Shown: positions 38,530 through 41,725 of the stretch, piece by piece | Layout: each line of letters starts with the position of its first letter | Position numbering within the stretch: position 1 is the first letter of the stretch | DNA from: an uncultured Clostridia bacterium | GTDB lineage: Bacteria; Bacillota; Clostridia; Christensenellales; UBA1242 | Length of the DNA: 52,721 nt | Direction: 5' to 3' | Assembly: GCA_944384415.1 (NCBI GenBank) | Contig: CALWTF010000004.1 | Coordinates: 1 to 52,721, forward strand | Position numbers and translations under genes: made by a program | Notes under the pieces: generated by a model | What the model saw: only the letters and a program-made list of their open reading frames with translations | Database searches by the model: none | Told to the model about the DNA's origin: nothing

Positions 38530-38973
38530 ATGAATATTCACGAACTTTCTCCTGCACCTAATTCAAAAAAAGGTGTTAAAAGAGTTGGCCGTGGTCGTGG
38601 TTCTGGTTTAGGAAAAACTTCAGGTCGTGGTGAAAACGGTCAAAATAAGCGTTCCGGCGGTGGAACAAGACCATTGTTTGAAGGTGGTCAAATGCCTTTA
38701 ATTCGTCGTTTACCAAAACGCGGTTTTACTAACAGATGGGGCGATGAATACTCAATTGTAAATGTTTCAGCATTAGAAGTTTTTGATGAAGGAACTGTGG
38801 TTACTGCTGAATTATTAAAAGACAAAAGAATTATTAGCAAAATTGAAAAAAATGGTATTAAAATTTTAGGTAATGGTAAACTTACTAAAAAATTAACTGT
38901 TAAAGCTAATAAATTTACAAAAACAGCTGAAAAGAAAATTAAAAAAGCGGGTGGAAACACAGAGGAGGCATAA
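38530..38973 (+). CDS. rplO: 50S ribosomal protein L15
   Basis: 147 aa, normal. Glycine-rich N-terminus [20 protein letters not shown] and [26 protein letters not shown] precedes the ATG. The stop overlaps the secY start by one base. Confidence 0.97.
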
Positions 38974-40271
38974 TGTTTCAAACATTGGTTCAAGCGTTTA
39001 AATCAAAAGATTTACGCAAAAAACTTTTGCTAACATTGGCAATTTTACTTATATATCGTATAGGGTGTTGGCTTCCAATTCCTGGTTTAGATGCAGCTAC
39101 ATTCACATCTAGTGACAGTTATAATGACTTTTTAGGTTTGTTAAGTTCTGTAACTGGTGGTGCTTTAGCTAATGGTTCTTTACTTGCTTTGGGTGTTGTG
39201 CCTTATATTACTGCTTCAATTATAATTCAACTTTTAACTATTGCTATTCCTACATTGGAAAGGTTAAGTAAGCAAGGTGAAGAAGGTCGTAAAAAGATTG
39301 CGCTTTACACAAGAATAACAGCCTTGGTGTTTAGCGTTATTCAAGCTATAGCTATTGTTTTATCATTCTCATCAAGTGGAGCAATAGAAACTAATGCATT
39401 GGGTGATGGTACACCTGCTTGGATTATTCCAGCTATTATTTGTATAATTCTAATTGCTGGTGGTATGTTTACACTGTGGTTAGGTGAAAAAATTACAGAT
39501 CTTGGTATTGGAAATGGTGTTAGCTTATTAATCTTTGTTGGTATTGTTGCTAGTGCTGGTTCATCATTCTTGACTTCACTTCAAGGAATAGGCTCAAATA
39601 TAGATAATTTATGGAACATATTAATTTTTGTTGCTTTGCTTATTATTATATTTGGACTTATAGTATTTGTTGACCTTGCAGAAAGAAAAATTCCTGTTCA
39701 ATATGCAAAACAAATTAAAGGAAGAAAAATGTATGGTGGACAATCAACATACATTCCTATAAAAGTAAATGCTAGTGGTGTATTACCAATTATTTTTGCT
39801 ACGGCAATGGTGGCTTTCCCACAACTTATTATGCAGTTGTTTTGGCCAAATTCAGATGCATATAACTGGTATGCAACATATTTAGGAACAGGTTCAGTTG
39901 TTTACTTTTTAGTTAATGCGTTGTTAATATTCTTTTTCACATATTTTTACGCACAGATTGCTTTTAATCCAGAAGATGTAAGTCGTTCTTTGCAACAAAA
40001 TGGTGGATTTGTACCGGGTATCCGTGCTGGTAAACCAACAATGGATTATTTAAAGAAAATTTCAGGTAGAATAACATTTTTTGGAGCTATGTATTTAGCA
40101 ATAATTTTTGTAATTCCATCTTTATGTTTTTCTATTATAGGAACTGATGGTAGTTTAACAAATGCATTTAGTGTAACTGGACTTTTAATTGTTGTAAGTG
40201 TTGCATTAGAGTTTGATAAGCAATTAAGTGCTCAATTAATGATTAAAAATTATCGTGGTTTCTTAAAATAA
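38973..40271 (+). CDS. secY: preprotein translocase subunit SecY
   Basis: Ten-helix channel of the Sec machinery, 432 aa. Start FKSKDLRKKLLLTLAILLIYRIGCWLP-type block, ASIIIQLLTIAIP (about residues 81-93), the plug and pore segments, EKITDLGIGNGVSLLIF (about 171-187) and IPVQYAKQIKGRKMYGGQSTYIPIK (about 235-259) are conserved; the signature loop of ten hydrophobic segments is visible. Translationally coupled to rplO (TAATG). Confidence 0.97.
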   Translation: MFQTLVQAFKSKDLRKKLLLTLAILLIYRIGCWLPIPGLDAATFTSSDSYNDFLGLLSSVTGGALANGSLLALGVVPYITASIIIQLLTIAIPTLERLSKQGEEGRKKIALYTRITALVFSVIQAIAIVLSFSSSGAIETNALGDGTPAWIIPAIICIILIAGGMFTLWLGEKITDLGIGNGVSLLIFVGIVASAGSSFLTSLQGIGSNIDNLWNILIFVALLIIIFGLIVFVDLAERKIPVQYAKQIKGRKMYGGQSTYIPIKVNASGVLPIIFATAMVAFPQLIMQLFWPNSDAYNWYATYLGTGSVVYFLVNALLIFFFTYFYAQIAFNPEDVSRSLQQNGGFVPGIRAGKPTMDYLKKISGRITFFGAMYLAIIFVIPSLCFSIIGTDGSLTNAFSVTGLLIVVSVALEFDKQLSAQLMIKNYRGFLK

Positions 40272-40306
40272 ATCATTTTGAATAGTTTACTTTATTTGAG
40301 GTGAAA

Positions 40307-40945
40307 ATGCGTATAGCAATTATTGGCCCTCCAGGAAGTGGAAAGGGAACTCAAACATATCGAATAGCATCTAAATTTAATCTTAAACATATTGTTGTTG
40401 GAGATATTGTTAAAGATGAAATTCGTAAAAAAACTGAACTTGGAGAAATTATGTTTTCTTATACAAATGTAGGAAAATTTGTTCCAAGTGAAATTGTTAT
40501 GAAAGTTTTAGAGAAACAAATTCAAGATTTATCAGGTTTTGATGGTTATATAATTGATACAGCTCCAATAAATCTTGACCAAATGCAAGCTATGGAATTC
40601 ATTCCATTAGATGCTGTTTTGTCTTTGAAAATTGAAAACTTTGATATTTTGCGTACTCGTATTTTATCTAGATTAATTTGTCCAAAATGTCGTCGTGTTA
40701 CTTCTGTTAGTGATACAGAAAACAATTTATGTAATAATTGTGGTGCTGAACTTGAAAAGCGATATGATGATAAAATTGAAACAATAAATATAAGATTAAA
40801 ACAATACGAAGAGCAAACAGTTCCTGTTTTAAACGAATATAAAAAACAGGGTAAACTTATTGAAATTAATGCAGAAAATACCAGACAAGAAGTTTTTGAA
40901 GAAATTTGCGAAAAATTAAACAATTTTTTCTCAAAAACCCTTTAA
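40307..40945 (+). CDS. adk: adenylate kinase homologue with altered AMP site
   Basis: 212 aa in the standard secY-adk-map position. The ATG at 40307 is preferred over GTG 40301, which lies in the ribosome binding site GAGGTG. The P-loop GPPGSGKGTQ (residues 7-16), the lid zinc ribbon CPKC...CNNC (about residues 125-146), and the lid and C-terminal arginines (RILSRL; KRYDDKIETINIRL) are kept. The AMP side is not: E. coli T31, R36 and R88 align without gaps to V31, K36 and I88, and DGFPRT reads DTAPIN, although D33, D84, P87 and Q92 remain. It may have another acceptor or weak AMP binding. Confidence 0.9.
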   Translation: MRIAIIGPPGSGKGTQTYRIASKFNLKHIVVGDIVKDEIRKKTELGEIMFSYTNVGKFVPSEIVMKVLEKQIQDLSGFDGYIIDTAPINLDQMQAMEFIPLDAVLSLKIENFDILRTRILSRLICPKCRRVTSVSDTENNLCNNCGAELEKRYDDKIETINIRLKQYEEQTVPVLNEYKKQGKLIEINAENTRQEVFEEICEKLNNFFSKTL

Positions 40946-40975: not shown

Positions 40976-41725
40976 ATGGTAACTATTAAAACTGAAAAAG
41001 AAATTCAAGCAATGCGCGAGGGTGGAAAAATATTAAGAGATGTTTACATCAAATTAAAAGATTTTATTAAACCCGGTATGACTACAAAACAAATTGATAA
41101 ATTTGTTCATAGATTTTTAGTTAGTCGTGGTGGAAAACCAAGTTGCTTGGGTTATGAAGGTTACCCTGCAGCTACTTGTGTTTCAGTAAATGATGTAGTT
41201 GTTCACGGAATACCAAGTAATGAAATCATTATACAAGATGGAGACATAGTAAGTGTAGATACCTGTGTATATTACAAAGGTATGCATACAGATGCTGCAA
41301 GAACTTATTTAGTGGGTAATGTTTCGGAAGAAAAACGCAAATTAGTTGAAGCAACAGAAAATGCATTTTTTGAGGGGATTAAACACATAAAAGATGGTAG
41401 TAGGGTTGGTGATATCGGAAGCCAAGTTCAATCTTATGCTGAATCTTTAGGTTATTCAGTTGTTCGTGAAATGCAAGGACACGGTGTTGGCTATACAATT
41501 CATGAAGACCCTGGTATTCCAAATTATGGAGAAAAAGGTACTGGTCCATTTTTAAAAGCAGGTATGACTATAGCAGTTGAACCTATGTTAAATTTGGGTC
41601 GAAGACAAGTTGTGATTTCTAGACAAGATGGGTGGACATGTAGAACTTGCGATGGAAGTCCATCTGCTCATTATGAAAACACTATAGTGATAACTAAAGA
41701 TGGTGTGGAAATCATAACATTGTGA
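40976..41725 (+). CDS. map: methionine aminopeptidase, type I
   Basis: Removes the initiator methionine from nascent proteins. 249 aa with the five metal ligands visible: Asp in SVDTCVYYKG (about residue 95), Asp in HTDAARTY (about 106), His in GHGVGYTIHEDP, Glu in AVEPM and Glu in HYENT. It follows adk by 30 bases and has a -10 box instead of a ribosome binding site ahead of its ATG. Confidence 0.96.
   Translation: MVTIKTEKEIQAMREGGKILRDVYIKLKDFIKPGMTTKQIDKFVHRFLVSRGGKPSCLGYEGYPAATCVSVNDVVVHGIPSNEIIIQDGDIVSVDTCVYYKGMHTDAARTYLVGNVSEEKRKLVEATENAFFEGIKHIKDGSRVGDIGSQVQSYAESLGYSVVREMQGHGVGYTIHEDPGIPNYGEKGTGPFLKAGMTIAVEPMLNLGRRQVVISRQDGWTCRTCDGSPSAHYENTIVITKDGVEIITL

Follow-up and report, generated by a model that had tools for sequence, protein, structure and literature searches.

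The AMP site of adenylate kinase (Adk) is described contact by contact in PMC3369945, where the hydroxyl of T31 reaches N7 of the adenine, the carbonyl of G85 and Q92 reach N6, the carbonyl of K57 reaches the ribose, and R88, which is called strictly conserved, reaches the phosphate. R36 and R88 are listed among six arginines essential in NMP kinases in PMC5026167. Our search of the literature, with subscription papers and preprints outside its scope, found neither a natural Adk that lacks these arginines nor a treatment of adenylate kinase together with UBA1242 of the Christensenellales, the group from which the DNA studied here comes. By motif, we take T39 and R97 of human AK1 to be the counterparts of positions 31 and 88. 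For this enzyme PMC3537612 gives specific activities of 110 for the wild type, 19.5 for T39V (18% of the activity left), 2.6 for R97A (2.4% left) and less than 1 for both R97K (less than 1% left) and R97Q.

The adk gene of the window and its acceptor site

The window, the whole stretch of 52,721 nucleotides that was analysed, carries on its + strand an adk gene for a protein of 212 residues (40307–40945), the sole Adk homologue of the genome. We take the gene to start at ATG 40307, preceded by a likely ribosome-binding site (GAGGTG, 40298–40303, + strand), where the list of open reading frames had given GTG 40301. It sits inside the ribosomal-protein operon between secY (38973–40271, + strand) and map (40976–41725, + strand), the two genes that we used for a species tree. 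The protein scores 115.9 bits against Pfam ADK (PF00406, cut-off 26.8) and 170.7 bits against the adk profile TIGR01351, barely above the cut-off of 168, and falls short of the profiles for UMP/CMP kinase (TIGR01359, 112.5 against a cut-off of 207.6) and for archaeal-type (d)CMP kinase (TIGR02173, 25.8 against 102.1). Its predicted structure (pLDDT 93.2) resembles the Ap5A-bound Adk in entry 1zin, which we take to be the enzyme of Bacillus stearothermophilus, with a TM score of 0.92, a Z score of 29.6 and an rmsd of 1.5 over 208 residues; the model thus has the Adk fold in a closed, Ap5A-like state, a state that is uninformative as to the identity of the ligand. By descent, locus and fold the protein is an adenylate kinase orthologue at the normal secY-adk-map locus.

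Residue numbers below are those of E. coli Adk, region 29–92 of which aligns to the window protein free of gaps. The numbering agrees with the residues named in PMC3369945 and PMC4325324. On this numbering the window protein has V31 (GTT at 40397), K36 (AAA at 40412), T53, T85, A86 and I88. The changes lie on the + strand: residues 30–36 read VVGDIVK (40394–40414), with S30V, T31V, L35V and R36K and with D33 retained; M53T is at 40463–40465 and L58F at 40478–40480; and residues 84–89 read DTAPIN in place of DGFPRT (40556–40573), with G85T, F86A and R88I and with D84 and P87 retained. Q92, to which PMC3369945 gives a role in recognising adenine, is kept (40580–40582, + strand). Also kept on the + strand are the P-loop (residues 7–15, 40325–40351), the donor-side arginines R118 and R122 (R119 and R123 of E. 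coli, 40658–40672), the zinc-ribbon cysteines C125, C128, C142 and C145 of the lid (40679–40741), and the lid arginines R152 and R163 (R156 and R167 of E. coli, 40760–40795).

An earlier note on this DNA had named V31, K36, I88 and the change of DGFPRT to DTAPIN, and had held the P-loop, the zinc ribbon and the lid arginines to be present. The alignment bears out each of these points, although the list of changed residues was short by S30, L35, M53, L58, G85 and F86.

Compared with the bacterial long-form Adk with a zinc lid (TIGR01351; 1zin; ancestor 1, 5g3y), the window protein and its relatives with the same site, which we refer to as variants, have the same locus, length and fold, the same P-loop, four lid cysteines, catalytic and lid arginines, D84 and Q92, but they replace T31, R36, G85 and R88 by V, K, T or S, and I or L, and carry M53T, L58F and F86A as well. 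They resemble the UMP/CMP kinase family (TIGR01359) in fold and catalytic apparatus, and the window protein scores below its cut-off; that family, according to PMC5026167, keeps the NMP-phosphate arginines that the variants have lost. Because R36, G85 and R88, a defining feature that was looked for, are absent, we keep the window protein apart, on its sequence, from the canonical AMP-specific adenylate kinases.

Spread, conservation and origin of the rebuilt site

When the first ten variants were searched against 297 family genomes, 270 gave an Adk match, with a clear gap in score after the top 20 genomes (9 of the window's genus g1, 3 of g15 and 8 of g65), which lie at E 3.1e-97 or better, the next match being at 3.5e-56. 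A further g65 genome that is 75% complete (G192) gave no Adk match. Comparison of adk at the secY-map locus across relatives, a step that the earlier note had proposed, found the altered residues to be common to all 20 adk-bearing genomes of this clade of three sister genera (9/9 in g1): each has V31, K36, T53, T or S at 85, A86, P87, I or L at 88, N or S at 89, and Q92, and in each the gene is flanked by secY and map. M53T accompanies T31V in 20/20, L58F is found in 18/20, and the variants keep D84, K13, R119, R123, R156, R167, D158 and D159 together with Q92.

Among 132 distinct Adk rows, E. coli included, R36 and R88 are both kept in 107; the 25 that depart from this comprise the 20 variants, the Adk of genome G035, which represents the nearest sister genus (R36, Y88), and four second copies from tandem adk pairs of genus g2 (R36, K88). 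A further 37 family loci all have R36, R88 and Q92 in their main Adk; among three extra paralogs, one has K36 alongside R88 and one is gapped at position 88. A stricter comparison set of 136 Adks (48 from the family and 88 from outside, with G035, genus g2 and the extra paralogs left out) has R36, G85 and R88 without exception, against none of the 20 variants; the outside rows were fetched in part through a P-loop pattern, which is irrelevant to the AMP site.

The rebuilt site is itself conserved. Between close variants dN/dS is 0.03–0.24 in six of seven pairs, the seventh being saturated, and variant adk is under purifying selection. For site-by-site comparison we chose lists of AMP-site and ATP-site columns from general knowledge of the enzyme plus PMC3369945 and PMC4325324. 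Over the 17 AMP-site columns pairwise identity is 85.5% among variants, 74.6% among canonical Adks of the family and 35.9% between the two groups; the corresponding figures are 77.5%, 65.9% and 63.3% over 22 ATP-site columns, and 55.1%, 32.1% and 26.6% over the remaining columns. These figures indicate that the donor site is common to both groups and that the acceptor site has been exchanged. Of the columns that are nearly invariant in the comparison set, the variants have altered 4 of the 8 in the AMP site but only 1 of the 17 outside it (Fisher p = 0.023). The earlier note's view that this cannot be a normal AMP pocket is supported, the whole acceptor pocket being rebuilt and conserved in its rebuilt form (20/20).

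In a tree of SecY and Map (82 rows) the 20 variants form one clade (SH-aLRT 98), with G035 as its sister (99) and genus g2 as the next branch out (95). The Adk tree (93 rows) likewise unites the variants (100/98) and joins them to G035 (99/95), and places the g2 copies elsewhere, on long branches. The stem leading to the variants measures 0.569 for Adk against 0.107 for SecY and Map, a 5.3-fold difference, and the summed crown branches measure 4.76 against 3.15, a 1.5-fold difference. The pocket switch arose once, in the ancestor of the three-genus clade, and has been retained since; the branch lengths fit a burst followed by constraint. The Adk of G035, which shares V31 and a DSAP motif with the variants and, unlike them, keeps R36 and M53 and has Y88, fits as an intermediate state. 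In genus g2 (G009, G072, G095 and G132) both tandem copies keep R36 and G85, unlike the variants, and derivation of the variant from one of these copies finds no support in the Adk tree, which separates the two, although the g2 branches are long. The g2 tandem itself lies at the secY-map locus (1501–2118 and 2115–2753 in L027; also L136, L137 and L138), and its members look differently modified from each other, one having A10, M31 and S92 with R88 kept and the other having R88K (DGFGKT) and E92.

These results establish a real, conserved and clade-specific rebuilding of the acceptor site in the cell's sole Adk, at a site that is otherwise invariant in this comparison. A natural clade in which R36 and R88 are both replaced, together with the intermediate G035, makes up a ready-made series in which one can ask how an enzyme regarded as indispensable comes to have its acceptor site rebuilt.

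Search for alternative ways of converting AMP into ADP

The variant clade consists of gut Clostridia with reduced genomes of about 1 Mb, and the window genome is 95.8% complete. A second adk, with the present copy in a new role, had been put forward in the earlier note; a single PF00406 match passes the cut-off in the window genome, as in every other variant genome (20/20), and we reject a second Adk elsewhere. PPK2 was likewise rejected as a substitute AMP kinase, the search finding it in 0 of 43 family genomes and in 2 of 7 from the order. Matches to PPDK_N occur in 2 of 9 g1 genomes, the window's included, in 0 of 3 from g15 and in 8 of 9 from g65, which rules out PPDK as a general substitute in g1 and g15 and leaves it a candidate in g65. 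The match in the window genome is a 521-residue protein (1944–3509 of L250, + strand; G000:C1), where PPDK has about 880 residues; it stops early in the PEP-utiliser-like part and is no ordinary PPDK. An archaeal-type CMP-kinase-like protein is present in 6 of the 20 variant genomes, the window genome being without it, and was set aside as a replacement AMP kinase on account of that distribution. This P-loop kinase is sporadic in the family: in G007 it lies two genes past rplQ (8073–8714 of L256, + strand), and it is found also in G103, G115, G001, G002 and G003. The TLC nucleotide translocase gave no match over the cut-off in 50 genomes, a search in which the control genomes gave no match either.

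With respect to adenine nucleotide supply, a search for PurA was positive in 5 of 6 genomes from the order and in none of the 44 from the family. For Apt, 3 of 6 genomes from the order and 0 of 44 from the family gave a match over the cut-off, a strict one that only 6 of 14 controls passed, and weak phosphoribosyltransferase-like matches are present below it; Apt is likely to be absent from the family. According to PMC12306168, UBA1242 of the Christensenellales depends on partners, lacks both nucleotide synthesis and ATP synthase, and has an incomplete glycolysis.

Loss of adk in relatives, which would have shown that the family can do without AMP kinase, was rejected. Of 24 genomes that gave no good Adk match (14 of those with no match at all, all 8 whose match was weak, and 2 from the order), 22 lack secY too, and it therefore appears to be the contig that is missing and not adk; in G320 the contig stops about 150 bases past secY. 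Adk is probably retained throughout the family.

Possible acceptors of the variant enzyme

The variants have a single Adk gene at its usual locus, with the predicted Adk fold and a pocket that was switched once and then conserved. Any cell that charges tRNA must recycle AMP. Our preferred explanation, held tentatively, is that the variant still phosphorylates AMP and binds it in a new way. Of the canonical contacts, Q92 and those made through the backbone are in principle kept, T31 and R88 are lost, and R36 is weakened to K. The adenine would then be read by Q92 plus backbone groups. T53 may stand in for the lost T31 hydroxyl at N7, since M53T co-occurs with T31V in every variant, and the phosphate would be gripped by K36 and the lid arginines (R156 and R167 in E. 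coli) in place of the R36/R88 clamp. The substrate is inferred, as are the functions given here to T53 and K36 and whatever the exchange may cost or gain the cell. Our failure to find known substitutes for AMP phosphorylation in the window genome slightly favours a new mode of AMP binding. Set against this mode are the presence of R36, G85 and R88 in all 136 comparison Adks, and the expectation that a lasting AMP site would hardly fall to 35.9% identity while the ATP site stays unchanged. By analogy, the human AK1 mutants at equivalent positions, which keep little activity in PMC3537612, also speak against it; given such losses, an AMP kinase with all of the variant changes would need compensation of a kind that we did not see.

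Nearly as likely as AMP held in a new way is a change of acceptor, in which the enzyme uses ATP to phosphorylate something that has no NMP phosphate in the usual place. Recycling of AMP would then fall to some enzyme that we do not recognise, or a partner cell would take AMP in return for ADP or ATP. Such a change would account for acceptor columns that switched and were then fixed while donor columns stayed as they were, for the loss of both NMP-phosphate arginines and of G85 in 20/20, and for a stem that is accelerated in Adk relative to SecY and Map when the crown ratio is just 1.5. The AK1 mutant data of PMC3537612 point the same way, as do the results for PurA and Apt and the partner-dependent life without nucleotide synthesis portrayed in PMC12306168. 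It is opposed by the lack of a replacement in our searches (no second Adk, no PPK2, patchy PPDK, the CMP-kinase-like protein in only 6 variants and not in the window genome, no TLC translocase over the cut-off) and by the invariance of Q92. Because Q92 is kept, the new acceptor could possibly contain adenine, for example adenosine, deoxyadenosine or another metabolite derived from a partner. The stronger statement, that the sole Adk is now a kinase for another acceptor and that these cells, without a recognisable AMP kinase, need a partner or some enzyme yet to be recognised for the step from AMP back to ADP, we regard as rather unlikely; if AMP were indeed no longer a substrate, these bacteria would form a lineage of cells in which no AMP kinase is known.

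It is improbable that kinase activity has ceased to be the main function of the protein and that Adk has been turned into a factor for assembly or regulation that binds and hydrolyses ATP, as Fap7/AK6 serves in ribosome assembly. An intact donor site and lid beside an acceptor site rebuilt with hydrophobic residues, the position of the gene within the ribosomal-protein operon and the Fap7 precedent (PMC4019466) would suit such a role; however, ordinary bacteria also have adk in that operon, the transfer-side catalytic residues, none of which a binding role needs, are all conserved in 20/20, and the cell would be left without any known AMP kinase. An artefact of sequencing, assembly or frame, or a decaying pseudogene, is ruled out for practical purposes, as 20 of 20 independent genomes in three genera carry the change in intact frames, with dN/dS as low as given above and as a single clade on the independent SecY and Map tree, and nothing was found in its favour.

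Two further observations concern other genes. Genome G025 has three Adk-like genes, two of them adjacent copies in L224 and one in L248, and one of the three has K36. In G000:C10 a 439-residue protein (610–1929 of L253, − strand) is a fusion of dephospho-CoA kinase (CoaE) with a metallo-beta-lactamase-type domain.
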